From: Trebouxia sp. TZW2008
Taxonomy: Eukaryota > Chlorophyta > Trebouxiophyceae > Trebouxiales > Trebouxiaceae
Assembly: GCA_002118135.1 (NCBI GenBank)
Contig: BDIU01000121.1
Span: 1-64,000, forward strand
DNA length: 64,000 bases
Direction: 5' to 3'
The position numbers and the translations under genes are program-made. This document shows, piece by piece, positions 2,706-61,652 of the stretch; positions within the stretch are counted from its first letter, which is position 1; every line of letters begins with the position of its first letter. The notes beneath the pieces are model-generated. The model saw only the letters and a list, made by a program, of their open reading frames with translations, had not been told where the DNA came from and did not search any database.

Positions 2706-5700
2706 TCAAACTTCAAGATGTAGATTGACCTTGTGCAAATTGCCAAAAGTGACTTTCCATCTCTGGCTCAGCTGCTTCTTGGATAGCTTGCTGACACCCT
2801 TGCCTGTCCACACAGCATAGTGCATCAAGACAGACAGCAATGCTCACAAAAAGGCCGTCCATGCAACAAAGCTAGGAGTTTGTCTTTGCCCACTAGTCAC
2901 CGTGTCACTCGTGCAACATATCTGAGGGCAAAGGTGAGCATGCAGTATCACGCATAACGGTGGGCCTTAAGCCATAAGCAACACGGCCAATAGGCTCCTC
3001 ACATTTGCAAGAGTCTCTGTGAATGACTAGGAAATGTGATGACTTTAATGCAACGGCAGTCAAGCTTGGGCGTCATACCTGTTCTGTTCTGACGTACGTC
3101 TGCAAGCTGCCACTCTACAACGTCTTCACCTTCATTATAGTTTGCAAGCTGCAAGACCTTGGTGTCTGTTCTGCAAGCAAAGTGAAATCTCTATGAGATG
3201 CAATTCAATTCCAGGGCATTCTCAATGAAAGGACAACAAAATTGGGAACCAAGCATCCTAACTGCAGTAGTAAGGATCTGAGTAAGGACAATCCGGTACA
3301 AGCAGAATTTTCTCAGGAACCAAAGCAATCACTACAAGGAGAAGTCAGTGTACCACACATGTCCAAACTCAGGCCGTCAACCTATGTTTCAGTGGCTCCT
3401 GCAAGTTTGGTTTGCACAAGCAAAAACGCAAAGATGCAAAAAAATGCAAACACGCAAAGACCTTGCATCAACCGCAACCACTGTGTACATTGTCGTGAGC
3501 AGCCTTGTATCAGGTCTGTTGTGGACTGCCCAACACTACACAACATGACCATACTGCAGTCATGTCTGTTTATAAGGACACTTGAAGGGCATTCTTGATG
3601 TAAGGACAGGGCAATTGGGAACTGATCACTGCATTCTGACTACAATGGTACTGTTGAGTGAGGACAGGTCAATGTAACGATGTTTTCTTTGGGAGCCCTT
3701 GCAGTAGTAATCAAAAGACAACACTATACCCAACACTACTCAACATGACCGTACTACCCAACATCCTACCCAGCAGGGTAGGTATGCAACACCCAACTAC
3801 CCAACAAAGCAAATGGTGGGCATCGGAGATGAGCTATTGCCAGGCACTGCTGCTTGCAGGGAAGACAATAGCCTGGCTAAATTGCATGTCAGTCTCTGTG
3901 TACTCACTTTTGACTGTCTTCCAGCTGAAACGTGACTAGCATTGGAAGATGCTTGAACCGCAACAGGTCTTGGGGGATACGGACCTGCCGCTCTGCGCCC
4001 TGAAAGAAAACAGCGCACATGACCACACAGCCATACGGTGCCTCAGACTAGACACTGCAGTTTGCAACTTCCTCAGGCATATGAACACAGTGAACAATCA
4101 TGCAAAACATTGTGCTGAATACGGTGTATGCTTGCATTCAGTTTGGCAGCATTGCACCTTTTCACATGCTAGCCATTGCTGCACACAGTAAGTCCTAGCT
4201 GCTATGTTGCAGAGCCACTGCCAGGCAAGTAGCGTCACACCATGAGTCATGAAGACAGGCTATACTGTGTATTACAGTAGTGAGATGGCTATTGACAGCT
4301 GCCAAACACACGCACGAACAAGCTTTCCAGTGAAGAAATCTCAACAGCAATGTCTTCAGGCCCCTCACCAGTGGCATTGAGTCATAAAAGGGCAATACTG
4401 TGTATCACACAAGTACAATGGCCACAGGAGGCTGCCAGATGCACGCATGAATCAGCTTACCGGCGAAGAAATTTCAACAGCGACGTCTTCAGCCTCCTCA
4501 CCAATTGCACTTTGGTACTCATTGGAGAAGTGCCGAGAGAAGACAGTAATTTCATCTAATGATGGTGAACCAAACTCATCCACTGGCTGCAATAAACAAA
4601 TGCACAAGTCAATAAACAGTTCTACTTGTTCAGTTGCTTGACATCCATAAAATGCGTATTATGGGATAAGTCATGCATGTGCAATTTGCTGTTATCGTTC
4701 TTGATTATGACTCAGTCATTTCCTCATGTAAAGACTGCATTGAACAAGCGAGCTGTCGGTATTTCAAATTATTACTTTTCAAAAGTACCATGACAGTCAG
4801 AATGCAGTGGTCGGTTCTCACTTGCATTGTTTTCACATCAAGAATGTCACTAAATGCAGTGTCACTGCAATAATAAAATACTGTAGTAGCAGTGAGGACA
4901 CAACACTCATTGCCAAACTTGGGATCTGAGCAGGACAGTTCCAATGGATGCTGCCTGTGTGAATTGCATGGCAGGCACTTTGAACAAAGAGTGGATAGTA
5001 GAACATTATGTAATTTGGCAAAGGGGTATCAAAAGTGGCTCCAAAGCTGTTTGTCAGAGCTCTGGAAGCTCTGTTAACATCAAAGACTGTTTATTGGCAC
5101 TACAAATGGTGTCCTGTGGCCCTACTGTTGGGTCTCTGAAAGGAGGTTGAATGCAGTCAGGATTAGTGATAAGAGCAGGATGATTGGCTGAGCAGATGAT
5201 TTAAACAGCAGCTGACCTTGTCAAGTCGTATCTTGAGCTGCTTACGGCCGGCGGTAGCTATCAGAGAAAACAGAGCCAACTCTTGCATGTCAGGCTGCTG
5301 CAGCACCTTCTGGACAACCAGTAATGCCTGCTTTCCCCTGCAAAACAGTTGCAATGTTGCTTGCGAGACTGCTGCAATACAATGCACACCAGACAAGTAT
5401 CATGCTTGTTGCATGTCAGCCTGCTGCAGCACCTTTTGGACAACCAGCAATGCCTGTTTTCCCCTGCAACACCACGTCATCTTTCTCGGAGTCATGTGTC
5501 AGCCTCTTGACTGTTCAACTGCCGCAAATGCAATGTAAGCGAGTCAATGCCGTCAGTCGATTGCATGATGACCACTGCAGAACCTTCTGGACAACCAGCA
5601 ATGCCTGCTTTCCCCTGCAACACCATCTGATGATTGTAGACCGATGAAAGATGTATGAGAGAATGTTGCATGTTAGCCTGCTGCAGCACCTTCTGGACCA

Positions 5701-6132
5701 TCAGCAATGCCTGCTTTCACCTGCCACACCGGTTGATGTTTCGTTGACATATGCCTGCAATCGAGATGTTCACTCAATACCCAACAGGACCGAGTCAAAA
5801 CTGGAGGGTATACATCATGGGGCGGTAGCAAAAGAAGTGACAGGAGAAGTGAGCTTGCCAGTCAGTGCTGGCAGTCTCAGTCACAGCCAAAGTCAAAATC
5901 ACAGGATATAGAAAACGAGGTAGTCGCTTTTGGCGTGCAAAAGAAAATGACGTGAGAAGAAAAGCTGACCAGTCAGTGTTGGCAGTGTCAGTCACAGCTC
6001 CTTGGGAACTCTCATTCTCCTCCAGCATTGCTTTGATCTCTTCCTCATCAAAGTTGTCTTCTTCTTCATTGTCTTCATCATCCTCCTCTTCTTCTTCTTC
6101 TTCAGCACCCGTGGACTGTAGATCATCTGCAG
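2706..6132 (-). CDS. unrecognised multi-exon protein with acidic stretch (gene D, partial model)
   Basis: Five exon-like segments on the minus strand look coding. About 6132-5990 is an acidic run of Glu/Asp then FDEEEIKAMLEENE. 5337-5217 carries VVQKVLQQPDMQELALFSLI and ends in KQLKIRLDK at a GTCAGC donor. 4586-4461 runs from PVDEFGSPSLDEITVFSRHF to VAVEISSP at GTAAGC. 3999-3908 carries RQVRIPQDLLRFKHLPMLV at GTGAGT. About 2812-2706 carries WTGKGVSKLSKKQLSQRW and a TGA at 2706-2708. Not every link is phase-checked and further exons may be missing; the 5' end, upstream of 6.13 kb, is unknown. The acidic run suggests a nuclear or nucleolar protein, but I do not recognise the family. Introns hold ghost copies of exon edges at 5.40-5.73 and 4.33-4.39 kb. 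The five segments might belong to more than one gene. Confidence 0.5.
3215..3720 (-). repeat. two pogo-like MITE fragments, reverse orientation
   Basis: Two stretches (about 3215-3300 and 3560-3720) match the reverse complement of the short repeat seen repeatedly in the ZW10 introns. Shared blocks include GATGTAAGGACA, GGCAATTGGGAAC and CACTGCATTCTGACT. They lie in an apparent intron of gene D. Ends are not well defined here. Confidence 0.55.
5390..5735 (-). repeat. three ghost copies of a gene D exon start
   Basis: The acceptor and first 60 or so bases of the exon at 5337-5217 recur at about 5400-5470, 5560-5622 and 5660-5730. Each has the block CTTTCCCCTGCA or a close variant plus TTTGGACAACCAGCAATGCCTG or similar. 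All copies lie upstream of the real exon on the minus strand, in the intron before it. Confidence 0.8.
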
Positions 6133-6760
6133 CGATGCATACTATGTCATGCAGCAGACGATTACTCATGCATCTGTGGGTTGTAGATCATGCATGGAAT
6201 GTAGATCACGCATGGGAATCATGCTGTAGATTGTAGATCATGCGTCTGTGGGTTGTAGATCAGCTGCAGCAATGCATACAGTGATATGCAAAACAAGACA
6301 ATGCAAGCATCTGTTGAATGTGGATCATGCAGCAATGCAGATCACGTCATGCAGAAGAGGACAATTTATGCATCTGTGGATTGTAGAACATTGTATAGAT
6401 CGGAGAACATACTGCAAATTGTGGATTGTGCATTGATGAAGTCTAGGTCATGTGCAGCAACGCGTATGATGTCATGTAGAAGAAGATGATTTATGCATCT
6501 ATGGATTGCAAATCATGCATGGATTGTGGATGATGCAGCTGTGAAATGTAGATCATCTGCAGCAATGCACACAATGTCATGCAGATGAAGATAGTTCATG
6601 CATCTGTGGACTGTGGATCATGCATGGATTGTAGATCATGCTGTGGACTGTAGATCATGTGCAGCAATGCATGCAATGTCATGCAAATGAAGACAATACA
6701 TGCATGCCATCAACGTCATGGGACTGCAGCAGGCTGTCAATTCTGAGGTGAACGCTCGAA
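6120..6760. repeat. degenerate satellite of CATCTGTGGATTGTAGATCATGC type
   Basis: Imperfect units built from ATCATGCATGGATTGTAGATC, CATCTGTGGATTGTAG and GCAGCAATGCATACAATGTC recur many times. The region begins at the 5' edge of the acidic gene D exon, whose edge (GATCATCTGCAGC) is part of the repeated unit, so the array probably arose from an exon-junction duplication. No coding sequence is evident in it. Confidence 0.75.
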
Positions 6761-7614: not shown

Positions 7615-7945
7615 ATGTCTCTGCTTCACCCAAGTATGCTTATCAAGCCAGAGTTATGCGCGCAGACCTATGACATCAGTCAATACAAGCAGTGCAGAGA
7701 CCAAATCAAGGACATGCAGAGTCAGGCAAGCCTTCACTGCAGTATGCTCTGTAGCATCCCTGGCTCCAGTGTTGTCAGAACCGACCACTGACGCAGCATG
7801 TCAGTTGTCAACTGCAGCTCCATGCCACTGATTAGGCGGTGTTTCAAAATGCCATACACTGCCTTAAGTTTATGAATATGTAATCATTGTCAATATCTGG
7901 CCTATGCGATCAGCCTTGTTGGCTGGCAAAAGCATGTAACATCAT

Positions 7946-7996
<51 letters not shown>

Positions 7997-10900
7997 GTCA
8001 CTTCTCTGTATGATGCAGGTGCTGCAGTGCATATATCAGAAGGCAGCTCAAGCTTACCTGCATGGCAGCTCGCAAGGTTTGCCAATCAATGCTGCAACCC
8101 TGTTAGCTGTGCATAGTTCCTTGCCGACATGGTGTCATGTTTGCATGTATGATACTGCAAACATGTGTGTAACATCTTCGCATACATATGTATACATGGC
8201 AGGCAACATGCTGCTGCGGCACAGCTGCCTGTGTCATCATCTGCCCCTTCAACATGCACTGGCCACACTCAGCATGGATCAGGCCGAGCATGCTCAAATG
8301 TATAAGCTTAGCTCAGTTCATGCTATTGCACTGCTGCCAAATATTTTCATCTTTTGAGCCCTATGATGCTTGCATGCAGAAATCGCACAGTTGCATGATG
8401 TCCTGAAGCAGCTGCAGCCAATTGGTCAGCACCAAAGTCTGCATGAAGCAGCAGCCATTGCTGACCTGATAGCGCAACATGATGGAGTGCAGCAACAGAT
8501 TGCAGAGGCTCAGCAGCGTGAAGTCAGGCTGCAGCTGGTAGCCAATTTGGAGCAGAAACAAGCCCATTTTGAGGCCTGCCTTGATGCTGGTAAGCAACTG
8601 TAAATTAATCAGTCACAGATCAATCAGTGAGCATTAGTAATCATCATCAAATCGTCAACCACTATGCATCTTATCCAAGGTGTGGGCATGCATGTTGTTC
8701 CACAGAACAGCAGAAGTGAAGCCTGCCTTGATGCTGGATAGTGTACATTCTTAGCATCTGTTTAATTCAATTTGTGGGCATGCACGTTACATGATGTTAC
8801 ACCAGATGTGAGGTCTGTGTTGATGCTGGTAAGCGCGAGTGCATGTCATCAATCAGACTGAACATGTGCGTACGCAATCAATTTCCCCTACTGTGTGCTA
8901 GATAGAGCTTGATTGATGGCAACGGATACATGCTGCTTCATGTGGTACTGATTTGGACATTGCCTGCAAGCTTTGCCTTCGTTTGTGCGCTGACTACCTG
9001 ACCTTCTGACCAAATGTACGCTGTCAGTGTCAATGGCTGCATGGCCTGCCAAATCCTCTCAGTTGCAGTGCTGTGCACTGATCCCTGCTGAGAGTTGAAA
9101 GCAGCTACAATGGCTTCCCTGATGGTGACTGCTCTGATTGGTTCCCAATAAGATTGTCCTTACATCAACTTGTCCTTACTCAGAGATACCAATGCAGTCA
9201 GAATGCAGCAATTGGTTCCCAACTGCCTTGTATTTACATTGAGCATGTCCTTACGCCAAGTGTCCTTGCCACAAGAAAACACTTTATTTGTTTTTGGTGC
9301 AGAGGAGTTTGCCCAAGCTGCAGAATGCTTGCAGAGCCTGTTGAAGTTCTCACAAAGCGACCAAGGCGCAACTTTTCCAGGTTTCCATGATCAATGCCTT
9401 GGCCAGCAGTCAAGCCTTCAACAGGTAATTTGCCCTGTTTTTTGTTCTCAACCAATCAAAAAGCGTATATGGCGATTTCTTGATATCATGACTTCATTTG
9501 TCACCAAGAATTTTGTCCTTGTGTCAAATTGTCATTACTCAGGAGCATCAATGCAGTTGGAATGCAACGCCCTGCTTGGCTGAATTCACAAATTATGTGG
9601 GAACAAGGCATTTGTGCATTCCAGCATACATGTGTTTCATCTAATACTCTGCCTTGACACTTTCAATGGCGTCATGTTCTGAGAGACTGGAGGGTTTGGT
9701 CCAGGAGGGCTGTTTACAGCAATGCCCCTGCCCCTCCCGACCTTGTCATCAGCCCTGCCTGGCTGTCTTCACATGAACCTTGTGGAAGCAACGCATTTTT
9801 GCATTCATGCATACGTGCGTTTCATGTAGCAGGACACATGACACTTTGCCTTGAAGTTGGTAACAGTGTCATGTTCTGCAGAGACTGCAGGATTTGGTCC
9901 ATGAGGCTGTTCACAGCAATGCCTGTGCCCCTCCCCACCTTGTCATCAGCCCTGCCTGGCTGTCTTCACACGAACCTTGTGGAAGCAACGTATTTTTGCA
10001 TTCATGCATACATGCATTTCATGTAGCAGGGCACGTGACGTTCTGCCTTGAAGTTGGTAACAGTGTCATGTTCTGCAGAGACTGCAGGATTTGGTCCATG
10101 AGGCTGTTCACAGCAATGCCCGTGCCCCTCCTCACCTTTGTCATCTGCCCTGCCTGGCTGACTTCACAAATCTTGTCCAAACAAGGCATTTGTGCATTCC
10201 TGCATACATGCAATTCATGTAGCAGGGTGCATGGTACTCTGCCTTCAAGTTGTCAATGATGTCATGTTCTGCAGAGACTGGAGGATTTGGTGCATGAGGC
10301 TGTTCACAGCAATGCCCCTGCCCCTCCCCACCTTGTCATCAGCCCTGCCTGGCTGACTGGGGCTGGGACAAATGCCCTGGAGGTCTGGAAGGCACTGCAA
10401 ATTCTGGGTCAGTACTGCTTTGGTCCTAAATTTCCTTACCTCCTGGCTTTTCTTGTTGCAAGGAGAAATGCACTGCACCTGATCTGATCATCATTGTCTT
10501 GATGGTCTGGAAAGCAGTGAAAGTATCTGGTCAGTATCAGATTGACATGAAAGTACATTACTTTTTACTGACTGCGTTTGTCACTGAGAAAGCTGTCAAT
10601 TCTCAGAACTGCCATTTCAGTTGGAATGCAGTGATTGGATCCCACTGGCCGTGTCCTTACATTGAGAGTCTCCTTATATCAGTTGTCCTTATAAGGAGAA
10701 ACAACTGTAATTCGGATTGATATGAATGCGTCCCTGTGAAGTGCTGCAGGAGTGCCTGCCCCAGCGTCATTGCTGTAGGCTCAGCCTGCGTTAATCATGT
10801 TAGTCACTAGTCATGACTTGATAGTCATCAAATGGGGCAGCTTCAGGCAGAAATGTTTGAAGGCAGTTTGCTGCTTCAGCATGCACTGAGGAGAGTCATG

Positions 10901-13900
10901 ATCCTCATTCGCAAGCATGCATACTGACTTTTGATGCTGACGATACAAGCTATGCGTTGGCTTCCGGCCCTGGATCTGTGCCATTGCCAGAGCTGTGGCC
11001 ACAGCTGTCCCACTGCTCTGTGCCAGAGCGTGTAAGACGACATAATGGAACCACGCACATGGGTCAACAAGTTGGGCTGCTGCTTGTGGCAGCCAGAGCA
11101 GCTTCATCACCGGCCCTGTGTCCTCATGCTTTTGAATTACAAAAACAAACTTAGTACCTTGCTTTGTAACGATGTTTGCTCTGCCGCTGATGAATCTGTA
11201 TACATGTTGCAGGCTGCTCCCAAGCTGTGGTCACCTGTGTTGCCAAAGATCATGTCTTGGTGCCTCTCTTGCAGCTGCAGCCCTTGACTTGTAACAATAC
11301 TCACCTTGCTGATGATACTCTTGTTACTGGCTGCTCACAAAACATGATCACCTCCCTTAACTTGTGACATTAGTCACTGTGTTGCTGATGATCTGTGTGT
11401 ATGTTGCAGGCTGCTCACAAGCTGTGATCACCTGATGATGAGCTATGCAATTTTACCCTGATACCACTCTTGAGATGGCGACCCTTGACTCACACCACAC
11501 TTCAAGCTGCACTCATTGCAACTACACAGCCCAAATTCAGAAGCAACTAGACGCTGAGTCTTACATCATGTATCTGATGACCTCGGATCATGTTGCAGGC
11601 TGCTCACAAGCTGTGATCACTTCTGTTGCCAATGAGCTGTGCAACCATGTCCTGGTACCCCTCTTGAAGCTGCATCCTAGTCAAGTCAGTTACAAAGCTC
11701 AATTGGAGAGGCAACCAGACGATGGGTCTTACACTGTGTCAGTGAGCTATGGGAGGCAGAAGACCCTGGCAGAAGAAGAGGACCACAGCTCAGTGGAAGC
11801 GGCGACCCTGCAGTGCCTTCAAGCTGTCAAACGTAAGCGTAGTCTCAGGTCTTGCCTTACTGGTGGTTTGCTGCTGCTTGGCCTGATCTGGTTGATGCAT
11901 TTTGGGTGACTTGGTCCATGAGGTTGCTTTATGTGGAACGCGACAGATCCTACTTGCCACATTTTGAAAAGTTGCAACTTGTTATTGTATGCAGATTGCT
12001 TTCCTTTGTGATAGTCCCTGTGCATCAATTGAGGTCCCTTGCTGCATACTGCTGCACGCGCATTGCTGGAGCGTAGCTTTCCGCATGATCTTGTACGCGG
12101 ATCGCACTAGAGACAATAGTGGGAATGCTGGCTCGCTTATAAGATAAGCACTTGTCAGAAGATTGTCAAGCAGCACTGCTCAAGTCTGCCTGCTGCATGC
12201 AGAGCGTGTTTTCAGCAATGACAGGCAACTGACCCTGGAGCTGGGCCGCGAGCTGTGGCCACAGCTATCTCATCACTGCAGAATCCTGTGTCAGACTGTG
12301 TGACATAGTAACATGATTGTTGTTACGCTTCTGTGCTGCATGCAGACCATGTGTTTAGCAACGACAGGCAACTGACCCTGGGGCTGGGCCGTGAGCTGTG
12401 GCCACAGCTGTCTTGCCACCATATCACCCTGTGACAGAATGTGCAACATAGCATCATCCTGTGTCAGACTGTGTAACATAGTGTTATGGCTGTTACGTCT
12501 GTGTGCTATATGCAGAGCATGTGTTCAGCAATGACAGGCAACTGACCCTGGAGCTGGGTTGTGGGCTGTGGCCACAGCTGTCCCATCACTACATCACCCT
12601 GTGCATGAAGCCAGACCAGCAACAGATGACTGATGCCTCCCAGCTACAGAATCTGCTGAGCCATTTCTCCACAGCAGAGGAATTAGAATCTGCAGCTGTC
12701 AAGCTCTTGTAAGTCATCCACACTGATGCTTTGGTGTGGTTGCGCCGTGAGGTCTGCAAAGCAAATTTCCTCTGTTCAGGTTTTGACCAACAGACTGACT
12801 GATGTAGCTGTATAGGTGCATGCGGCCTGTGTCAATGCATGTCCATTGTTATCAGCTGTATGGCAAAGGTCTCACACACTGCTTGACAATCTCTGCACAT
12901 TGTAGGCAACTGCCAAAAGCGTGACAGCATCAGGACCCTTTGCATGCTGCCTAGCCTTGATCAGGTTGTTGCTCATAGGAGGCTTGAATGGCCTAGTCAC
13001 ACAGCACGTATGTCACAGGACAGACTGCTGTATCAGTGTATGTTTGGGCATTTATCAGGCACTCAGGCCAAGGGTACACCCAGAGATACTTGGCAGTCAA
13101 CTGTGTACAAGGACCTCTCTGCCCTTCATGTTCAATATTGATGGTTTAGGTTAGCACATGATTGAACTGGTGGGAGACAGTTGATTGCTTCTGTACGTAC
13201 CTAGATGGGCCTGCTAGCCCATGTTTACAATGAATGAGTGAAATGAAAGACAGTTGATTGCTCTGTACGTACCTAGATGGGCCTGCTAGCCCATGTTTAA
13301 AATGAATGAGTGGAATGAAAGACAGTTGATTGTTTCTGTACGTACCTAGATGGGCCTGCTAGCCCATGTTTACAATGAATGAGTGAAATGAAAAGCGTGT
13401 GCATGGCAGTAATGGTCACCCCAAAGCCATTTGCAATGGCATCTATAGTAATAGTAGCACATGTGCTGAGTGGGCGCGGCACAAGACTTGTCTTTGTACT
13501 TATGCCAAGCCCAAAACATGATGCAGGCATTTGGACGATCATATGGCAGCATCAGACAGCGCCGAGTCACCGCCGGATATCTCACGGATACACGATTACG
13601 CCCAACACTGCATCAATGGAGCCATGCACGCCAAACGCATGCAGGTATGCAATCTCCTCATGTTTCAAGCCACCAAATTGCACAGCATCTGTCTGATCTC
13701 AGAGTCATCCCAGTCGCTGCTTGCTGTGTCAAGGTTCAGATGCATTGGGTTCGTTGCCTGTCATACAGCCCAGGGTGGGGCTATGCACGCCAAGCACATG
13801 CACGCATACCATCTCTTTGCACCTAAGCCACTAACAATCACTGCACAGCATCTGTCTCATCTCAGAGTCATCCCAGTGGCTGCTTGCTGTGTCAAGGTTT

Positions 13901-16900
13901 AGATGCATTGGAGTCGTTGCCTGTCATACAGCTCAGAGTGGGGCCATGCACGCCAAGCGCACGCAGGCATACCATCTCCTTGCACTCAAGCCACTAACAA
14001 TCACTGCACAGCATCTGTCTCATCTCACAGTCATTGCAGATGCTGCTTGCTGTGTCAAGTTAAGGATGCATCGTATGTCATTGCTTATCATACAGCTCAA
14101 GTTGGAGCCGTGCACGCCAAGCGCATGCAGGCATCCAATCTTCTCATGCACAGATGTCTAAGCCACTGAAATTGTACAGCATCTGTCTCATCTCACAGTC
14201 ATCGCAGATGCTGCTTGCTGTGTCAACTTCAGGATGCATTGGTTTGATTGCCTTATCATTGAGGCCAAACTGGATCATTTGTTGTTGCGCTTCCAGACAG
14301 GCATGGCAAGTCAGTTTTGGTGCCAGCTGTTGGGGTTGCTTGTTGTTGGAACATGGCAGCTGAACAGCTTTACAGTTGTATAGTTTCAGCAGAATAATGC
14401 CTCGATAACTCATGTCCTTCATGTCACTCATGTCTGATCATGACACAATGATATATTCAGATGTTTGAAGTAGAGACTGCCTCTTATGGCATGTGCAACC
14501 AGGCTTGTTGCCTGGCTGAACCACGCAATATGGTTCTTTTTATCTCTGACTCATCTTGTTTCCCTTTTCTTTCCCTCTTTTTCTTCCTTCACCTTGTGGG
14601 ATCCTCAATTTTCTGTCTTGGCTACAGGTAGTGGAGCAGGCAAGGGATGTTGTAATTCATGACACCCAGCTGGAAACTGCAGTGGTTGGGGAGGACATCC
14701 TTCTGACCCCTGAAGCAGCTTCCAGTAGGCCTGATCAGAACAGCCAAAGCTTACTATCAGCAGGTATAGTTTGTTGGCAGATTGTGACAGATCCTCACGC
14801 ATGTGACCTGGTGTTACCAACTGTAACATGCAGTGCGCCATGTGTTGTAAGCATTTGACAGGTATGACATCTTGCTGACCCCTGGAGGAGCTACTGCTGG
14901 CACTCGTCAGAACAGCCAAAGCTTACTATCAGCAGGTACAATTTGCTGAAATCTCAGGACAAATTGTTGCACATGTGACCTGTAATGTAAGCAGTGGCTG
15001 GGGAGGATATCCTGCTGACCCCTAAAGCAGCTACTGCTGACACTGATCAGCACAGCCAAAGCTCATTTTCAGCAGGGATAATTTGTTCAAAGCTGGTAAG
15101 GTCATTGCATATGTGACCTGCAACGTAAGCAGTGATTGAAAAGGACATCTTTCTGACCCCTGGAGCATCACAAAGGGCCTTGTGCAATGCTTTGCCAGAC
15201 ATCATGTTCATTCCCAATGTGGACTACTTGTCTCATACTGCACAAGTGTTGAAGATGACCAAGCTGACTCACCAAGGCAATGCTTGTCTGATGCTGCAGG
15301 TTCATTCACTTTGACAAAATCAACTCATCGAGTGATGCAGCTGGTGGGGGGCTTTGTTCAGGAGGCCGTGAGCAGCGGCAGCCCTGCAGTGGTACAGGCA
15401 ATGTGCAATGCTGTGCCAGACATCATGGTCATCTACACCCAGCCACCACCCAAAATGCAGGAGCAGCTAACGCAGGTAAAACACCACTTACTACAAAGAC
15501 GCTCTTGTTCTAGATCTGTGCTCCTTGGCACAAAAAACAGCGACTGAGCTGCATATTTCTTGAGTGTCTTTGTAGGCAGTGAGTAGCTCATGACATCTGG
15601 AAAGACCAATCATATTGACTTACTCGAAATCACTTCTTGTTGACATTCTGCTGGCTTTGACAGGTGGCGCAACTGTCCTGCCTTCACTACAACAGCTGCC
15701 AATACCTTGCCCATGAGCTGTGCTGCCTGCCTTTTGCCACTAGGCCCCCACTGGCAACCTTGATAGGCAGCAACGGCCAATTCCTGGAGTCCATTAGGGA
15801 GCTGAGAGCCTTTGGCCAAGCATGCTTGGATAGACAGGTACATTCCAGCTTGATATTTCGTGCACTGGAGTCCCCTGCTGCTGTTGACATTAAAAGCATA
15901 GTCAACCGCAAATGTTGTGCATGGCAGTTTGTTATGACCGTCAAGGAGCTGGGAGCCTTTAGGCAGTCATGCTTGCATAGACAGATAAAACCCATTTCAG
16001 GTGTTTTGGGCACTTGTCTTTTTCTGTTTTTGGAAGCACTGTCAATCTCAGGTGATGTGCTGCTGCTGGCACCAAGAAGCATAATCAACAATAATAATAG
16101 TATGCATGGCAGCTTGCTATTGATAATGAATGTATAGACTGCCCAGCTGCTGACAGCCTTTGGGCAGTCATGCTTCAATAGACCGGTAAATCCCAGTTCA
16201 GATGTTTTGGGCACTTGTTTTTTCTGCTTTCTGTGCTACTGTTGGCCTCAAGAAGCATAATGAACAACAACATTATGCATGGCAGCTTGCTGTTGATAAT
16301 GAACGTGAAGACTGCACAGCTGCTGAGAGCCTTTGGGCAGTCATAATTGGATAGACAGGTAAGTGACATGGCCTGCTGATGGCACCAAAGTTGCTTATGA
16401 GATGGAGTAACATTCACAGAGTATCATTGACACCTGGAAACATTGTCGTCAATCACATTAGCATACAGCTGGCAATTTTCATTGGTGTTGTTAAATGTAT
16501 CACACCAGCAATTGCGGCTTGAATTCTCTTGGACTCTGCCAAGTGCATCAGTCATGTGACAATGTATTCTGGCATCAATGCCCTCTGTCATCTGTGTGTG
16601 TACCAATGGCAGGTGCAAAGACAGGCAGATGAGATAGTAGGGCTGTTAGGTGTAGCCCAGGGCTTCAGGCAGGTGACTTCAGGGCAGAAGGGCATCGCCG
16701 CACGGAGGGTGGTGGCTCAAGTGCTGCACAGCCTGAGCCGACTTGGCGATGCCCTAGGCGGCATACTGCCCTCTCAAATCTATGTGCAAGCTGCTGGCCG
16801 AGTGCTGCAAGCTGTGCTGCAGACTGTAATAGGTAGGGCAACACAAAATATGGAATCAAGGAAACAAATGGGGGAAGTCTGTCATTCAGACAAGGGGTCT

Positions 16901-19637: not shown

Positions 19638-20452
19638 ACACATTCTGAAAAAGACATGCATTTCAGATGTTGCTACAATATGTGATCTTGGCGATTTCTC
19701 AAAGCTTGCTCGTCAGTGCACTTTCAGGAATCTGCTTCCAGATCAGCGCCTGAGTACTGCATTTCAGATGGGATCGAGCACATTAAATGCAGGCACATGG
19801 TGAAGCTGCTTGTGAGCCCTTTGTGTTTGTTAGTCATGATCTTGTACGCGTGAATGCAACTCGTCAGTATCAATGAAACCATCATGCAAGCTTCACTACG
19901 AGGGAGCTTCACTACGAGGAGAGGTGCTGGCAGCAAAGCGAGACAAGTCTAAAAAGGATGGCGCTTGTGCAATGCATGATGCAACCAATTTGCCATCGAA
20001 AGCCGGCTGCATGTGCCTGCGCACAGCGAATCTCGTGCAAAGCGTGCAGCATACTATGGAAATCTGCCAATAGCCAAAGTTCCTTATCCAAACGGCTTAT
20101 GGCACATGCGAGCACGGTCACGAGATTGTGCCCTTGATGGCTGTGAAGTGATGCGAAGGCACTACAAGGGCCACGTGCTTTAACTGCCCCTTTTTAGTAC
20201 CAGATCGAGAGCGCAAAAAGATGCCTTACCAAAAAGTTTTGGCTGATTGATGATGGATTTGAATTTTGGCATCCCGCGCAAGTACTGCCTCAATGTACTA
20301 ATTTCGCGCTGAATGTCGATGTGGCAAGAAATCATGTAACAGTGGATGAGGTATGGATGACATCGAACAAAGGCCTCTTGGATAGAATATTTGGCAGGCA
20401 CGGCTCGGGAACGCACCTGGCCGGCGCATCTGTGCAGCCTGCAGCAAATCGC
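19638..20452. other. intergenic region between ZW10 and the MYB gene
   Basis: No gene is convincing. It should hold the ZW10 3' untranslated region and the MYB promoter. The MYB frame is open upstream to an ATG at 20321, so part of it could be coding. Two tandem CTTCACTACGAGG(A/G)AG blocks lie at about 19890-19922. Confidence 0.4.
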
Positions 20453-22832
20453 ATGGAAGTACGGCCGGCGCGCAGGTGCTCCAGTTGCGGGCAACAGGGA
20501 CACAACGCGCGAACTTGTCTGGAGAAAGACGAGCGGGTTGGCCCTGTGCGTCCACTAGACCACTCGCTGCAGGAAGCCGTCAGTCAGGAAGGTTTTGAGC
20601 AGCAAGGCTCGGCAGATGGCTCCTCTCAGTTGCACGGCCTCGTGCACAAGCATTTGTCCGCTCCCACAGCTAGCATGTCCGGCTCTGAGTCAGAAGCCCA
20701 GAACGTGTCGCAGCTTCCGCACATTTCTAGAGAGCGCAGACGAGGTGCGATACGACCTGATGCACTTTAAGCGTTCGCCAGCCGCTCTTTCGCGTTTATC
20801 GCGTGCGTGGTTCTGGTCAGCGTCTTTCACGACCTTTGACACTCACAGCTTCATCTGCTGCTCAGGTACGCCCTGGACGGAGGACGAGCACCGGGCATTT
20901 CTTGCCGGCTTAGACAAGCTTGGAAAGGTATGTGCTCAGGCTCAGCAGTCGATTCGCTGATCTGCAACGAAGCCTGACTCAAACGTTTGAGCGCCAACTT
21001 CAGGGCGACTGGCGAGGTATTTCGAAGGACTTTGTCACAACCAGAACTCCCACTCAAGTAGCCAGTCATGCACAAAAGTATTTCATCAGACACAATAATC
21101 AGAGCAAGCGCAAGAGAAGGACAAGCTTGTTTGACCTCAAGGCAAACGCTGACACCCTGGAAACAGTAAGCGGCAGCTGTGTGATGTCTGTCAGCCTCAC
21201 ACTTTAACTGCACAGCACCTGCACAGGCATTTGCAGTCCCTACTGCCCAACAGCGGCTTGGCAGCACACCAGTCACGCTATCATTGCAACCCTCAAACCA
21301 CCCCTGTTGTTGTACATTGTACGCTGCTCTGCCTAACAAGCAGAGTGTTGGCAGTCATTGTCACAGGTGCACTTTACCTCATATGCAGAGCACAAAGGAC
21401 CCAGCTTGGGACATCTGATGCCCATTGGTCAGCTTGGTGTTGCTTGCAGGGCTCTGCAGAAGCCACGTCAACAACATGGCCAGAAAGAACACATCAGGGC
21501 TCCACTTCTGTTCCTGGCCATGCTTTGAATGGCCAGCCTCTGCATTCACATGCCCTTTCACAGCATGGAGATAGGAGTGCAGTCCCTGCTGCAACACAAA
21601 GCAGCGGCAGTGCCTTCCCAGGTCACATGTGGCTGCCCTCAGGTACTGCCCCCATTCTCACTTCTTTTGCTGTATGGACACACCACATTGCTGCAAGACC
21701 ATTCATGTCACAATGTGCCACCTTGACATTGAGGTCTCCAGCTGTGCTCTCAGCTGATTTGTCTATAGTCTATGTAATGGCAACTGCCCTGTTTTATGTG
21801 CACATGACCACGTAGCACTGTGACAGTCTCCAGAACAGCATCAAGTCTAGTGACACCTGTCTCCCAGCTGTACAGCAGTTGCATCGGTCATATGTGCTCT
21901 TGCACATGGCTTCTCCTCGGTGCCTCATCGTTGCCTCTGAAGCAGCAAGAATACAACTCTGGTGTTTTGTTGCAGAGCCAGATATGGCTTTGATGCAGCA
22001 GTACATGGCAATGGCAGCTGGCCAGATGGACCCAGCCGCCCTACAGATGCTTCAGTTTCAGATGGCTGCAGCGCAAGGCCTGCAGAACATGCCGCGTTTC
22101 CCGGGCTTTCCAGCACCAGGCTTAGCAGAGCAGCTCATGGCTGTCTATGCTGCTCAGGCCGCAGGTTTCCCTCCCAGCTGCTTCCCGCCATATCCCAGCG
22201 CAGATCAGCAAGACCCTGGAGCAGTTATACAGCAACAAGCTGCAACAGCAGCTGCACTTGCCAACATGTACTACAGTCAGCAGGCTCAGCATCAGTCAGC
22301 CGCGCATCAGTCATCTACCCCAAAGGACCAAGCTGCTGCTGCAGCAGCTGCCTGCGCACTTGCTCAAGCAGCAGCATACCAAGGAGCTGTCCCCAACTTC
22401 CCTTTCCCTAACAGTCAAGCACAGCAGCCGCTAGGCCCTGCCCAACATTCCTCTGATAAAGCAACGCATCAGCACTCGGCGCCTAGTGCATTGCAGCATC
22501 AGACTGCAGCAGTAGAAGGTGTATCAGACAGACAATCCAGCATGCCACTATTGAATGCTAAGGCAACTGTGGCGGACGACCCAGCGTTTGGGCACGGCAG
22601 ACTGTATCGGCCTCAGGCATCCCATGCCAAAGCTAGTGTAGCGCCCCCCAGTGGCAAGTTTGGGGGTGCAGTACATGACAGCTTCCAGTGTGCGAGCGCT
22701 TTGTCCAGAAACTCAAGCTCAGAATCAATACTGCCTCCTGCAAGCCGCTGCTTTGAGACAGCGCGAGGTCAAGCCAACGCCCTGAAACGTGCTGAAGATG
22801 TGACTGCTGCTGCTGCTGCGCACTTGATCTAG
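20453..22832 (+). CDS. MYB-related transcription factor with CCHC knuckle and SHAQKYF motif
   Basis: Exons: 20453-20744, 20866-20927, 21004-21165, about 21227-21366, about 21391-21642 (its first part uncertain) and 21976-22832. The N-terminus has a zinc knuckle ([14 protein letters not shown]), as in plant MYBS3-type proteins. Exons 2 and 3 encode one MYB repeat: [40 protein letters not shown], then [11 protein letters not shown]. The C-terminal exon is rich in Gln, Ala and Ser, typical of an activation region. ATG 20453 is preferred because relatives start just before the knuckle; an in-frame ATG at 20321 is the alternative. It should act in the nucleus on I-box or TATCCA-like DNA (family knowledge). 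It is convergent with CYP97. Confidence 0.88.
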
Positions 22833-47647: not shown

Positions 47648-49975
47648 TCATAAGAAGCGCCCAGTATCACGCTGCAACCTAGGGCCTGCAGTCAAGGATC
47701 CTTCTTGACTCCGCTCAAGCAGCTCCTCGATGTGCTCAGCAGTACGCCCCTGCACAGCAGCATCGCTTTGTGCTAAACCATCACAACATCATACAACTGC
47801 CTAATAGAAACCATTTTGTGCACAATCTGCAGGTATTGTAACATGAGTGCATCCTGTGTGCCCCTGACTTCTGCCAAGATAGCTTGTGAGAGACTGTCTC
47901 AAGAACGCCTTGAGAACTGTTAAAATGTCTTGGAGATCAAAGTGCTGCACCGTGTACGATACAAAATCACATGTGACTGTATCACAAACTTCAAAGCAGC
48001 GGCATGCTTGGTCAATCAAAAGCTCAAGTCTCTGCTATGTATGCAGGCCATCAGCAGTTGGACATGCATTTGTACAGAGCACCCCGTCAAAGGGGCATTT
48101 CCCATGAAAGCTGAACAGAGGTTTTGTGTTTGCAAGCTCACCTGTTGCCGAAGCAGCATCACAGCCATCAGAACTTGCTTCTCATGATCAGACAGGTTAC
48201 TGTGATGACCAAGTTGTGCTAAACGCGCTCTGCGAGCCTCGTAGAAGACCAATGCTGCCGCCACCGACACATTGAAGGAAGAGACAAAGCCCGACATGGG
48301 TATGTAGGCTGTAGAGTCTGCTAGCTGTAACGCTTCTGCTGATACCCCTGCAAAGAAGAAGATAAAGATGAAGGAGAATTCTACATGCTTTGACCAGCCA
48401 ACATGGCTGTTAGCATGTGCCACACAGTGGCAATGACTACAATACAGAGTGACTACTGTCCTCTTACCATGCATGACCATATGCAGGGATAACAACAGCA
48501 ACATTTGCAATGCAAGTACTCTTGCCCTAGCATATATCACCCAACATTTGTTACTGTAATGTGGGGAATGTCTTTCACATAAAGCTGAAAGGTGTCAACT
48601 TTGACTCAGAAGCTCACACATGTTCTGTCTGCTGGCAAGTCAAACTCCAGGTCACACACACATAGCACCTGTGCTGGAATGTATCCTGCGTCACTCTAAA
48701 ATTGTCAGTGTACCGTCGTGTTGTTGTCAACATCAGTGTGACTGCTGAACGCTTTCACTGTCAGTATGACCACCATGAATACTGTGTCTTTGTTCACAGC
48801 TCACCTTCCATTTCATTGCCTAGGAGGATGGCAGTAGGTCTTGCACTATCATTACGACCATCATGATTACTGTATCTTTGTTTATAGCTCACCTTCCCTT
48901 TCATTGCCTAGGAGGATGGCAGTAGGCTGAGTCCAATCCACATCATGTATGCTGACAGCCTCTGAGTCAAAATGGGTAGCAACCACATGATAGCCAGCTG
49001 CCTTGGCATTTGTAATGCAGGCAGTAGCGCTGTCCCATAACCTGATGTCCATCCATTTCTCGGCGCCTGCGCTGTTGCGCTGCTTGCGTGCTCTGTACCT
49101 CTGACTTTCTGCGTTGATGCAGTGGACTGCTCCCAGTCCCAGAGCTGCAATCAGAAGAGCGCTTTATCAGAATCGTGCACGACACAGCAAATGTGCACTT
49201 GTGTTGATATATACACAAATGGATTGTCAGACACTCAGATGCCTATGACAGAATATGGTGGGTTGCAAATTGGCATCATGTTTCTTTTTCAAGACTGCCA
49301 TGCAGCAAATGACATGAGCAACACCCAAGCTCATGCATCTTGCTTTCAGTCTGGACAGTGCTGATGATGCTTACCGTCTGCTGATCTGCAGACTGCGCCC
49401 AAGTTGCCCATGTCATGCAGGCCTGAAGGCAATCATCACAGTGTGAAGCCAAGAGGCCAACAAAGACTCCATTTGTTTGATGCCATGAATCCAATGCTGC
49501 TGACCTTCAACAATTGGCAATACGCTGAAGCATCTGCCCTCCACAACCTGCGTAACAGAGCCATAGCATGGTGAGGTGCTTGCAATGCTGGGCTATCTGT
49601 CGAGAACGCCCGAGCCACTAAAACTTTTGCCAAGCTTTGCAATAGGCTAGACTACTGCATTCATACCTTTGTCAACATGTCAAGCCTCTTTCCCGTGGCC
49701 AGAGGGCCTAGGCCGGCGATCATCTCAGCACCAGTACGTACTTCACCGCTAGGAAGCCGAAACCTATCAAGGAATGGGAATTTGGTGCTGCTTGCATGCA
49801 GGGCGTCATTTGTCTGCCTTGCAGCCCTAATGGGCGCCGCGCAAAGAGTTTTGCTTGCAGGAAAGGTAACAAGCCTCCGTTTACAAAATTGTGGCTTTGC
49901 AAGGACAGTCAGCGGTGTCGCTGTGAACGATTTCGGACGTGCGTAGTTCGCGGTGGAGATAGAGGGCCAGGGCAT
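47648..49975 (-). CDS. SpoU/TrmH-family RNA 2'-O-methyltransferase, 6 exons
   Basis: SpoU (SPOUT-fold) enzymes transfer a methyl group from S-adenosylmethionine to a ribose 2'-OH of tRNA or rRNA. Exons 49975-49667, 49547-49505, 49422-49375, 49144-48893, 48347-48142 and 47749-47648 keep phase and give 319 residues. The three SpoU motifs appear in order: DMGNLGAVCRSADG (motif 1, with the conserved Asn and Arg), AILLGNEREGVS (motif 2, GNE) and IPMSGFVSSFNVSVAAALVF (motif 3, Ser and Asn-Val-Ser). The N-terminal 60 residues are basic and Ser/Thr/Ala-rich, suggesting an organelle target signal; which organelle is not clear. The RNA target cannot be read from sequence. It is divergent from ACBP, with 221 bases between start codons. 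Confidence 0.92.
48720..48840 (-). repeat. ghost copies of SpoU exon 4 end
   Basis: The exon 4 end with its donor (plus strand ATAGCTCACCTTCC then ATTGCCTAGGAGGATGGCAGTAGG) is repeated at about 48798-48840 almost exactly. The following intron piece TATGACCACCATGAATACTG is also repeated (48767 and 48855). Copies lie downstream of the exon on the minus strand. Confidence 0.92.
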
Positions 49976-53020: not shown

Positions 53021-53060
53021 GAGGTGAGCACTGTAGAAGCACACGTTCGCTTGCATTATA
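53018..53060 (-). repeat. ghost of gene G zinc-finger exon end
   Basis: TGAGGTGAGCACTGTAGAAGCACACGTTCGCTTG copies the block at 53347-53381 (TGAGGTGAGCACCACAGAAGCACACGTTGGCTTG) inside the zinc-finger exon. It lies downstream on the minus strand. Confidence 0.88.
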
Positions 53061-53314
53061 CACACCACAGCCAGAATGTTGCCTCAGTTAAAGCAAAGCC
53101 GATCAGAAGCATAAGCTGTGGTGGTGCCTTTTGCCCAAAGCAGTAGCAGATGTGGGTTGAGCATTTGAAAAGCTTACACTACCTTGCAGCGTATATGCAT
53201 TTCAGCCAGAGCATTGCCTTAAACCTGGCAATGCTAATGAGCAGCACAAGGTGTGGTTTCAATTAAATTCAGAACATTTCCGCCTTGCAAGGCAAGCTTG
53301 TGAGCAGATTATAC

Positions 53315-56300
53315 CTTTCTGCTGTAGGCAGCCGCCCCTCTTGGCGTGAGGTGAGCACCACAGAAGCACACGTTGGCTTGAGGCACGAACAGTCCTTCTT
53401 CATTGGCGTGCTTGCCATGCTGGCGCTGTTGAGCCCACTTGTCTCGGCATGCTTTGCAGGCGCCCACCTTGCACTTGCCACACTCTGACTGCAGTGTGCT
53501 CCTCAAGTTCCAGCAGCCATTGCAGGTGCCCTTGAACAGCACCTGCAACAAATGCAACAATCCAGGATGAGGTGGTTTGACAAAAGTCCACCACAAACTG
53601 GGCATATGAAAGTGATGTGATTTGGCATCAATTGGAAACACAAACAATCTTTGGACAGCGTGCTTCTCACTTTTCAGCAGCCATTGCAGGTTCCACAGCA
53701 CCTGCAAAAAGCAACATAACATGAAACTGAAGAAAGTTTGGCATAGATTTGGGATCACAGCAACTGAACAGCAGCGTGCTCCTCACTTTCCAGCACCCAT
53801 TGCAGGTATCTGCTAACAGCACCTGCAGTCAGTCAGTGATTTTGCGCACATCAGAAGCAATCTTAGAAGGGATGTGACATGTGTGCAGCATGCTCCAGAT
53901 GTGGAATTGGCTGCATTTCGGCAGCCACTGTACGTGCTGAGCGGCACATCCAGTAGCAAGTGGGTCGGCCATGTTTCAGCAGCAGCAGCAGCATCAGCAG
54001 CAGGAGCAGGATGGAAGCAATCTGTGTGCAGCATGCGCTGTGCGATCTAAGTCATTTTCCAATTCCTTTGCTAACAGACACAAAACATCACAAATTGAGT
54101 GAAGGTGTAAAGGTATGGCCTGTGGCAACCTGTTGGGATCATGTCACAGGCCTATATATGACTGTGAGATTGAAGCTCTTACTGTAGTTGATTTTTCCTG
54201 CACCGCAATTATCCACAATCATGATCTCTTCAATTTGGACTGATTACATGTAGAAACAAGCATCTGACAGGGTGGGTCACCTGGTGGGTAGGGGTAGGGG
54301 TAGGGGTAGGCGCACGTGACAGGGCATGACGCGCAGCAGCCGGTATGAATCAGAGCACAAGCCTTCATGGATCTGTGAGAGCATGCATGTGACAGGGTGG
54401 GTCACCTGGTGGGTAGGGCTAGGGGCAGCTGACAGGTGGGCCTGTGGAACATCTTCGCCCTTCAGCACCTTCACCCTCAACGCCTGTGGCTTAGGCCTGC
54501 CAGAACCTGTGCCATCATCAACAATGTCAGCAGATTGGCTGTCAACAGCAGCGGCTTGAGCCACTAATCACATGCCTCAAAAGATTATACGTGCAGCAAG
54601 GCTAGCAGTGCACTGACTCATCAGGGTCTTTGTGCGGTAGCTGCGCTTTGCATGAGGACAACTCAAGAAAGAGGACAGACAGCAATATGCCAGAAGGTGC
54701 ACAGCCGATTCAAAATGTTTACTGGGGTCTTTGTTAGTTGGTTTTGCTCCTTACATGGAAGTAGCCAAAACAGCAAAAGGCAGCGTACCGTAGAAGCAAG
54801 CAAGGCATGAGGCATGAGCAAAACGACACTGCTTTCACAGGCATGGTTGAAATACAGCTGTCAGGGGTAGTCACCAGGGTCTTTGTGGGGAAGATGGTCA
54901 GACAGGGATGACATTTGCCAGTCCCAGTGGCAGGCTTTCAGCACCCATGCGCGCTTTCTGGACTGCAGGAACTCTTTCGCGTTCTGATTCCAGTACTCAT
55001 GCTTGATCTGGTCCTGACGCCAGATGCGCCTGCTGCTCTTGCTTAGCCACTCTTCAGGTCGCTGTGGAAATGCTGCAAACACAGCAACAAGACTGTTGTG
55101 GGACTCCTGACAATTCTGCTGAAAGCGCTGCAGGCATAGCAGCAATGCTTTCCTGGCGCAAGTGCAGGCAAAGCAACAACACTGTTCTGAAGAAGCTGCA
55201 GGCAATAGCATTGCTGGGCAGTTGCTTGAGGCATAGGTCCTGCTCTACAACTGCTGCAGAAACACATGCTGCACTTGCTCAGCCACTCCTCAGGCCGCTG
55301 TGGGAATGCTACAAGCAACAACACTGTTCTGCAAATGCTGCAGGCATTGTTGCTGCTGGTTGAGAGGTTGCTGGTGTTGAGCAGTGGCTTGTCACAAAGA
55401 TTCTGGTTTTAGCCTTTGCTTTGAAAACCAATTTGCAGGCAGGTCAAGGGGTCAGCGCCAGCGCAGGGCTGACCTGATGCACAAGTCTGCTTGGTCTTGA
55501 TGCAGCTGCCATACAATGCAAATTTGCAACAGTCAGCTTGACACTGTTCCAGCTGCAAGAAAGTGTGGCAGAAGCTGTGGCCTCAGCATCAAGATTTGCA
55601 GGCTAATGAACTTGCAATGACAATGGACTGAACAATCAGGGTCCATGACCTGCCTCATGTACTGCAATCCGTGCGATGAGACACAGGCGACTCATGCCAA
55701 AAAGGTGACTCACCAGGCCAGGACAGCAAGTACTTGCTGGTCTTCTGCTTCAGCACATTTGCCTGATACCAGATCTTCTTGTCAGGATCCACACACACCA
55801 TCAGACTGCTCCTGCCATCCCAAAGGAAAGGCTCAGGGCAGTTTGAGTCCCAGGCCCGTTCATGATCCTGCCCTGGGGCATCTGCAGCATCCTGCCCTGG
55901 TGCATTTGCAGCATCCTGCCCTGGGGCACTTGTAGCATCCCGCCCTGAGGCATTGGCAGTGTCCTGCTCTGGGGCATCATCAGCATTCTGCCCTGGGGCA
56001 TTGGCAGCATTCTGACCTGCTGATGCTGAGTGTAAGGAGTCTTGCCCACCCAGTGGCTCATCTCCTGAGATTTCAATGACTGATGGCGAACGAGGCTTGA
56101 CAGGACTCGGAACAGCATCATCACCTGCAAAATTTGCAAAGTGCTTCAGGGCTGTGACACAGTTGACGATAGATAGCTGTTTGGGTATGCATTTTGGCAG
56201 CTTGACCATACATCAGTATGACAATGAGCAATGCATACTGCCTGTTGGAGAGCGCACTTCCTTTGGACAGAATGACATGTCAGTTCAGCAGAGCATTGCA

Positions 56301-59489: not shown

Positions 59490-61652
59490 ATGCAGGCATT
59501 GGCCGCCGGTCTGATTCGCGACGTGGTCCTGCCGAGCCGCAGTCCATCAGACACCTTCAGGGCATTGCCCTGGATCCTCCTTTGTGAGCATCGCTTTGCA
59601 TACATACTGCTGCCAGCATGCATGTGTCAAGTGGTTCATTCCTGCTGTCTGTGCTGATACCCAACAACACATCCGCTGCATTGCGCTACAACCCCCACAA
59701 GGCTCGGAAGCAGGCTGCAGTGCACAGTTCTGCCCTGGGGAACATGCATCAGCAACCGCACTTTTGAGCATCACAGTGCATGAGGCCATGATAGCTGTGA
59801 TTGCAGGCTTGTGCCAGCAGCTGGGCTGCAATCTTGCATGCGCAGTAGCTAAAGCAGGAGCTTTGTTATTTGGTCATGCCCTTGCCTCCTGCTTGTTGTG
59901 GAGGCTGCTCCTTCTGGGAAAAATAGGTAAGTTCTGGAAGCACAGGCACTGTTGTGGGCAGGAACAGTAGCTGAATATGTTGCCAAGTTCAAGCATGCTC
60001 ATTACATACATAACGTAAGCAACTGGCATGCTTCTTGTAGGCAAACAGTCCATTCACAGTCATGGCACACCAATGCGCATATTTGGTCCGCCAGCTTGCT
60101 CGTTTGCATATGCACCTGGTGGGCATACGCATAATGCATATTTAGTTGGTTGTTGACCTCATACTCTTTTACTACACTGTCATGCGCAAAGTCACATCTT
60201 GACGCTGTCTTGATGCTGTTGCAGCCTGCAAGGAATTTTGTTCTCTTGCCTGAAGCACTACCCCACATGCATGCAGGCAGTTCTGTCATCACTGCTCTGT
60301 ATCGGGAGTGGATATCTGGCGTTGAGAGCTTCCACAGCTCTGGATTTTGGGCAGGTAAGATCTGTTGCATCTTCAAGTTGTTCTCTTGACGTGACCTGTT
60401 GACAAGCTTGACACACCTTTTGCATCTGACCTGTGGCATCTTTACTATGCTATCTTATCATGGCTCATTGACAAGCTCACCCACCTCATGCATCTGTTGT
60501 GTTGCACCTTCATCGAACTCCCTTGTCATGGCCTGTTGACGAGCTTTGGCACCTCATGCATCTGATCTGTTGCATCTTAAATATGCTATCTTACCATGAC
60601 CCGTTGACAAGCTCATCCACCTCATGCATCTGTTGTGTTGCACATGACCTGTTGACAACCTTCACATACCTTGTGCATCTGATCTGTCGCATCTTTATTA
60701 TGTCGCCTTGTCATGGTCCATTGACAAGCTCATCCACCTCATGCATCTGTTGTGTTGCACCTTCATTGAGCTCCCTTGTCATGGCCTGTTGACGAGCTTC
60801 AGGCATCTCATGCATCTGATTTGTTGCACCTTCATCGAGCTCCTTTGTCATGGCCTGATGACAAGCTATACACACTTCATGCATCTGATTTGCATCTTTA
60901 CCATGCTCTCTTGTCACAGCCTGTTGGCAAGCTCTTCACACCTCATGCATCTGACAGTGCCCAAATTGCTATGCAGCTTTCTGGCTGCACAGCTTCTGGA
61001 GCCTGTGTGGATTTGGGCACAGACGATCCTTTCGCAACATGTTTGTTGCAACTTTGTATGGTCTCATTGCCACAGCGGTAAGTTTTTGATTTCAGGGGCT
61101 GAGCATAATGTCTGAGACACTGATTAGTCTCCTCGTTTGCCGTGCTGTGTGAAATGCTGCGCTTGATCACAGTGTTTCCTTGTTGTAGTGACGCTCAATA
61201 TAGTCACATTCTGAATGCAACGACAAAGGAGGTGGGAAGCAAGCACTGCATCATCACTGCTATGGTACTTCTGTACAGCGAAAACTCAATGCAGTGGCAA
61301 ATCTCTTGCTGAAAGGTTTTAAGGCGTTTTAGAGTGCTGATCTCAACAGCAAGCTTTCCAAGTTTGGACCAGAGTGACAGTGGACAAAGTTTGCAGCTGT
61401 CGCATTGCTTGAGGTATGACGTGCTGGCTTGAATGCAGGCACTGGCGGCATGTGGTGTGCTGGGCCCTGTTGCAGCTTCAATGGTAGACCCATGCTTCAC
61501 AACTCCCATTGTACTTGCCTGGGTCACAGCAGGTATGAGTGACCAATCAACCCCACATGTTGCATCTGATTAGGTCAAGTCGTAGATTTGCAAGTCATGA
61601 TTTTGCAGCTCCTTGGATCCGTCTCATTGGGTCAAGCAATGCTATTAACACT
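59490..61652 (+). CDS. hydrophobic multi-exon protein (gene H, partial model)
   Basis: Four exons join with consistent phase: 60233-60354 (KHYPTCMQAVLSSLLCIGSG), 60958-61077 (AAFWLHSFWSLCGFGHRRSF, then FVATLYGLIATA), 61439-61532 (ALAACGVLGPVAASMVDPCF, then TPIVLAWVTA) and 61609-61652 (PWIRLIGSSNAINT). An upstream exon ending at 59926 (ALASCLLWRLLLLGKI) fits the phase, and ATG 59490 is a possible start. The segments are strongly hydrophobic, suggesting several membrane spans. More exons may follow at 61.85-61.96 (LAGLWWSAGVICSSLIKSYM), 62.5 and 63.25 kb, but their phases did not join. I considered TRIC-type channels and other membrane families and recognise none with confidence. Confidence 0.45.
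60395..60957 (+). repeat. minisatellite of TGTTGACAAGCTCATCCACCTCATGCATCTG type
   Basis: About nine imperfect units of roughly 60-70 bases repeat GACAAGCTCATCCACCTCATG and GTTGCACCTTCATCGAGCTCC. It fills the intron of gene H up to the acceptor of exon 60958; the last unit supplies the acceptor context CATGCATCTGACAG. It therefore looks like a highly expanded acceptor-side duplication. Confidence 0.9.

Follow-up and report, generated by a model that had tools for sequence, protein, structure and literature searches.

Exon-edge copies within introns of a Trebouxia genome point to tandem duplications across splice junctions

Why should introns contain worn copies of the edges of their own neighbouring exons, splice sites included? 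The question is raised by a stretch of 64,000 nucleotides from the green alga Trebouxia sp. TZW2008 (assembly GCA_002118135.1, contig BDIU01000121.1, positions 1-64000; hereafter 'the window'), which is part of a genome of 68.5 Mb in 527 contigs. Among the 120 protein matches listed for one of its kinesins, 14 with 79-91% identity rank ahead of the best one bearing a species name, from Apatococcus fuscideae (67%), in keeping with a trebouxiophyte alga. A first-pass annotation of the window had noticed such copies in the large introns of several genes and had proposed that tandem duplications across splice junctions lengthen introns throughout. Here, we analysed the window together with a wider sample of the same genome. 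We consider tandem duplications across a splice junction, which persist because the exon-attached outermost splice sites stay in use, to be the best explanation and probably the correct one.

The wider sample comprises 53 regions with 238,073 bases and 209 exon matches (9.3 kb of the window included), anchored by Pfam matches to P450, kinesin, TCP-1 and class-I tRNA synthetase, and is thus a non-random sample of four conserved gene families from one genome. Splice junctions were deduced from domain continuity in combination with a splice matrix trained on those introns themselves. In this way, 76 of 114 candidate introns were fixed to the single base (the 'exact set'); the other 38 were dropped, as no acceptable in-frame GT-AG solution was obtained by score. 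Self-comparison of the window, counting direct pairs at distances below 750 bp, yielded 68 direct and a single inverted pair. With a more sensitive search, 109 local direct and two inverted pairs were found, compared to 0-1 of each in five shuffles, and 19.6% of the window bases lie within local direct repeats. The wider sample gave 344 local direct and nine inverted pairs (shuffles: two and one). Most copies are diverged by 5-30%. The pattern had been placed at 5217-60957, and this span turned out to be about right, since repeats were found from 3.2 to 63.3 kb.

How are these repeats positioned relative to exons? Among the pairs touching exon matches in the wider sample, 62 place a copy of an exon end downstream of it and 56 a copy of an exon start upstream of it, 21 concern the middle of the match and six the whole block. 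Four further pairs were flagged as having both copies inside an exon; they fall in three domain blocks which hold in-frame stops and hence probably span an intron or a copy, so that these pairs were not counted as exon-internal. Repeat coverage of exons amounts to 17% adjoining the junction and declines to zero past 120 nt. In the exact set, 22 of the 76 introns carry exon-edge copies, located at 14 donors (24 pairs) and 15 acceptors (30 pairs), and the same pattern is present outside the window, which agrees with the pervasive process that had been suggested. One copy is present at 14 of these 29 junctions, two at seven, three at six and four at two, in line with the earlier estimate of one to about five. 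When families were assigned over all 112 adjacent exon pairs, irrespective of whether the junction was fixed, we obtained 26 acceptor, 21 donor and 12 intron-only families. The junction families have units of 61-262 bp (median 145) with offsets of the nearest copy of up to 346 bp.

The consistent polarity reported in the first-pass annotation holds: when side and orientation were checked across the 53 regions, none of the 118 exon-start and exon-end pairs was on the wrong side (the middle and whole-block pairs have no assignable side), and no inverted exon-edge copy occurred at the 76 exact-set introns. Its use as a test of the idea had to be given up, as a tandem duplication over one junction can leave the truncated exon nowhere but within the intron. 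Being a consequence of geometry, the polarity provides no independent evidence; the zero count of wrong-side copies argues against dispersed copying and is silent on selection.

Mismatches between copy and exon amount to 159/1169, 133/1178 and 280/1168 at the three codon positions (0.136/0.113/0.240), a ratio near 1:1:2, and we found an in-frame stop in eight and a frame shift in seven of 54 copies. Judged from this pattern, the data fit copies that look free of coding constraint but were taken from a constrained exon. Differences from copy to copy are 0.205/0.203/0.306 by codon position; serial budding from an evolving exon would yield such a third-position excess, and some constraint remains compatible with it.

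The copied splice sites, which we refer to as decoys, were still found in most copies: GT was retained in 17 of 22 and AG in 24 of 28 cases, with two of the 24 donor pairs and two of the 30 acceptor pairs not locatable. The expected retention is 0.77 at 12.5% change per site, and neutral simulations gave 0.73-0.80; decoys are thus not purged faster than the remaining copy. Their strength exceeds the lowest tenth of real sites in 12 of 22 donors and 19 of 28 acceptors, compared to 5% of random intronic GT and 9% of random intronic AG. Splicing at the nearest decoy would bring in a stop at all 29 junctions. Since real and decoy sites would be identical at birth, neutrality would hinge on the splicing machinery ignoring a strong decoy.

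Introns with a repeat family are longer, with a median of 677 bp (26 introns) versus 342 bp in those without (50 introns; P=4.5e-9). Net of repeats, the median is 385 bp and does not differ from that of repeat-free introns (P=0.23), which supports the view that repeat content accounts for the extra length. At most 22% of intron bases are attributable to repeat families, an upper figure because all intronic bases of junction families were counted.

What kind of process could leave such traces? We suggest that short stretches of this genome are often duplicated in tandem and in direct orientation. Duplications within exons or those adding exon sequence would be eliminated by selection, while those within introns or across exactly one splice junction would survive. 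In the latter case, the exon-attached splice site, i.e. the first donor or the last acceptor, would still be used and the mRNA would be unchanged, with the truncated exon edge and its splice site left behind in the intron; recurrent events would produce arrays. The copy would decay freely, and the conserved real exon would keep it recognisable. That the outermost sites are used in the mRNA is suggested by domain continuity across the intron. On this point the first-pass annotation, which had named the innermost acceptor, needs correction: the sites required are the outermost ones at both ends, the acceptor being the one attached to the exon. The origin by junction-crossing tandem duplication that it had proposed appears the most likely one and is best visible in arrays, in which the intron part of the unit is homologous in 12 of 15; for single copies, in which this part is recognisable in just four of 14, a head-to-tail origin is presumed. 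Fixation of such duplications may be neutral, and introns may have lengthened over time by this route; the upward ratchet put forward in the first-pass annotation would require that duplications are not offset by deletions.

We further consider it possible, although we hold this only tentatively, that roughly three introns in ten were built by junction-spanning duplications and that the spliceosome routinely bypasses one to several intact, full-strength copies about 85-350 nt away, choosing the exon-attached site. If so, position or exon context, rather than site strength or shortest intron, would set splice-site choice. Each copy would be a splice site in competition with its own twin, with strength and local sequence nearly equal, and the genome would offer natural replicate experiments on the rule of site choice. 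Direct views of intron growth without transposable elements are rare; in the present case, the exon has left a legible trace, and intronic exon edges could serve to date intron growth.

Several results weigh against an origin by junction-crossing tandem duplication. An alignment covering 0.75 or more of the offset was obtained for only 82 of the 344 pairs, with shorter ones for the other 262; among the 40 young pairs (identity of at least 87%, length of at least 35 nt), the figures are 11 and 29. Part of the 262 short pairs can be put down to non-adjacent array members or wear, but with many copies shorter than their spacing, and with so few single copies having a recognisable intron part, a head-to-tail origin is less certain for single copies. 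A recognisable intron part was observed in about half of the cases, whereas simulated neutral decay with few indels gave 0.92-0.98. To close this gap, larger indels would have to be frequent, the exon part would have to decay more slowly, or copies would have to arise by some other mechanism; adding either of the first two to the simulations restored agreement. In addition, junction and intron-only families stand at 29:4, compared to 44-60% junction families in neutral simulations (a Poisson estimate made beside them gave 19.5 expected and four seen). We discounted this excess, as multi-event arrays are scored as junction if any of their events is. The single-pair families give just 11:3 and 21:8 (junction:intron-only; P ~0.02-0.12 for an expected 52-60%), so that the junction excess was dropped as strong evidence; a mild excess may exist. 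Finally, the intron part was shorter than 46 bp in none of the 29 exact-set units, with 26-32% predicted under random placement. Purely neutral models do not lead one to expect this deficit, which hints that units without the full splice-site region are not tolerated. Outside the exact set, the C489 kinesin array (match 48-138) apparently has a shorter intron part of ~16 bp, as estimated from coordinates.

Might the exon part and splice site of the copies instead be kept similar to the exon, by gene conversion or by selection on the copy, rather than decay freely? We regard this as unlikely, albeit as the strongest of the alternatives. In the nearest copies, the exon part is 85% identical, whereas the intron part reaches 59% by gapped global identity and 72% without gaps, and the decoy is retained in 25 of 28 located nearest copies. 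Simulations in which the exon copy changes at 0.35-0.5 of the intron rate matched the intron-part identity better than a simple neutral model, and only these came near the junction excess (66-73%). That excess, however, mostly vanishes with arrays set aside, and copies kept similar would be at odds with the 1:1:2 codon pattern, with the stops and frameshifts, and with the mutual differences of the copies at all codon positions. A neutral model with frequent larger indels performs about equally on identity, but left locatable decoys in 186 of 257 simulated cases versus 28 of 29 observed.

We judge it rather improbable that the single copies arose through templated insertion, with a short exon-edge piece from nearby being inserted during break repair in place of a head-to-tail duplication of the whole unit. 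It would account for young pairs that are much shorter than their offset and for the scarcity of detectable intron parts in single copies. Templated insertion should, however, also yield inverted and wrong-side copies, of which we found none among the 76 introns and the 118 pairs, respectively, and most arrays are homologous over whole units.

We consider it very unlikely that the copies represent genuine alternative exons or mini exons, comparable to the situation in the potato RdRp gene. Decoys do often match the strength of real sites, the potato case outlined in PMC4974935 provides a precedent, and the six whole-block pairs outside the exact set leave some room for this reading; yet no family of the exact set covers both junctions, and splicing at the nearest decoy would introduce a stop in every case. 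A second splice site is not enriched either: strong donors follow five of 15 acceptor copies (random windows: 23%), strong acceptors precede two of 14 donor copies (random: 50%), and hence no mini-exon signature was found at these junctions. The signature of recursive splicing, an acceptor followed by GT, was likewise absent, with exon starts of GT at five of 15 acceptors with copies versus 19 of 61 without (P=1). Chance similarity, transposable elements or assembly error can practically be dismissed, as shuffles yield almost nothing, the repeats are local and exon-specific, and misassembly would not produce copies diverged to the observed extent, although a few introns may carry dispersed repeats (in the introner test, confined to 238 kb of the 68.5 Mb, eight of 76 introns match another sampled region).

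How does intron growth by junction-spanning duplication relate to described systems? In the potato RdRp gene, a tandem duplication across one intron-exon boundary gave rise to a new intron with a cryptic donor, as outlined in PMC4974935. Our case resembles the one outlined there in that the duplication runs over one boundary and splicing signals are inherited from the parental structure; it differs in that potato represents one case with a new intron, whereas here an old intron lengthens and copies occur at 22 of 76 introns. In the AGGT or proto-splice-site model, introns are gained by exonic tandem duplication (Rogers 1989, Hellsten 2011 and Gao and Lynch 2009, as cited in PMC4974935; for Drosophila, PMC2891723). 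As far as these sources outline it, that model shares with ours that splicing silences a tandem duplication, but there the duplicated segment is exonic and the new intron forms between the copies, while here the segment already spans the junction. PMC10946897 deals with introns in which spurious 3' splice signals close to the 3' end are selected against; to judge from its outline, competing acceptor-like sites within introns are common to both studies, but strong decoy acceptors persist in the introns examined here. Judging from our alignments, a new AGGT-type intron between two exonic copies was not found, as the copies sit within one intron, each with its own decoy. Whole-exon tandem duplication can lead to mutually exclusive exons. 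With these, our copies share that exon sequence is copied beside itself within a gene; unlike these, the exact-set copies are partial, have one splice site each and are wearing away. A complete duplicated exon with both splice sites and the frame kept did not occur in the exact set; the six whole-block pairs lie outside it. Among the papers listed from a collection with few subscription papers, no title or abstract opening dealt with a pervasive build-up of exon-edge copies in introns. Intron gain by tandem duplication is already accepted; what we regard as new is that this known type of mutation makes an old intron grow, rather than a new one form, across many genes.

Six genes of the window had been named as examples, and three of these could be confirmed, namely SpoU, the P450 and, with a junction that is only probable, ZW10. 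Repeats near a possible metallophosphoesterase exon (35513-35719) were not tied to a junction, and the genes designated D and G were not identifiable; a coding-potential scan of the window gave a signal too weak for gene models. The clearest case is SpoU, in which one 88-bp duplication crosses the donor at 48892 and the unit aligns along its whole length. The P450 gene on the minus strand was identified by Pfam p450 (CYP97 is only the subfamily label of the first-pass annotation), and copies flank several of its exons on both sides; the exon end ...KNPDKMRK is followed by two copies downstream of donor 25432. The C-terminal exon of ZW10 is supported by PF22766, but its donor at 16833 is only probable because this match extends 40 bases past it. 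Coordinates are compiled in Table 1.

Table 1 Exon edges, their copies and tandem arrays located in the window.
Positions	Strand	Feature	Basis
9569-10358		Tandem array, unit ~197 bp, 3.5 copies; exon content not established	Self-comparison
12184-12603		Tandem array, offsets 143 and 313 bp; overlaps open frame 12482-12709, no Pfam match above cut-off	
15181-15432	+	ZW10_C exon piece (15402-15432) with 31-base copy upstream (15181-15211); weak match, E=0.036, below cut-off	
16709-16873	+	ZW10 C-terminal exon, extent of PF22766 match; probable donor 16833	
16953-17397	+	ZW10, two further copies of 213-bp unit with exon end and donor-like ATAG/GT	
25122-25153	-	P450, second copy of exon end; decoy donor lost, AAA/GCCTGT at 25120	
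25298-25342	-	P450, first copy of exon end and donor, downstream of real donor; decoy AAG/GTCGTT kept at 25320	
25433-25591	-	P450 exon, p450 positions 240-299; donor GT at 25432	Pfam
25515-26093	-	P450 exon start, preceded by worn copies at offsets of 165 and 322 bp	
26487-26821	-	P450, 180-bp duplication with an exon start and the copy upstream of it; exon identified by eye, junction not fixed	
27218-28087	-	P450 exon end with about eight worn copies (counted by eye) downstream of it, after ~28.0 kb; junction not fixed	
34512-34595	+	Possible exon of a metallophosphoesterase with GNHD motif; PF00149 match below cut-off, E=0.053	
48752-48838	-	SpoU, intronic copy of 88-bp unit, ~88% identical; decoy donor GAAG/GTGAGC intact at 48804	
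48840-48926	-	SpoU methyltransferase, original copy of 88-bp unit across donor; exon end ...GNEREG, donor GT 48892	
60359-60954		Tandem array, unit ~68/137 bp; exon content not established	Self-comparison

More tandem arrays, with exon content not established, are present at 13617-14259 and 6104-6705, with units of ~163 and ~105 bp, respectively. In the wider sample, an exon start in kinesin region L026 (C489:5727-8993) is preceded by an array of about five 112-bp units, and the following exon end carries a 126-bp array with 94% identity; these are among the youngest-looking arrays found. The few inverted local pairs include a repeat of ~178 bp in a TCP-1 gene region (L053, 1736-1913 and 2194-2373; 84% identical).

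The window also holds features of other kinds. A 286-amino-acid open frame at 1074-1931 (+) is transposase-like, with a match to PF13358 DDE_3 above the cut-off (E=1e-8) and one to PF01498 below it (E=8e-7); it resembles transposases of the Tc1/mariner type. An open frame at 20198-20767 (+) gave no Pfam match and is overlapped by another at 20559-20960; the former presumably holds a zinc-knuckle-like motif and the latter a MYB-like piece. At 55865-56019 (-), a 24-bp tandem repeat with 6.5 copies lies within an open frame and encodes the Ala/Pro/Gly/Asp-rich stretch ...APGQDAANAPGQDAAD...

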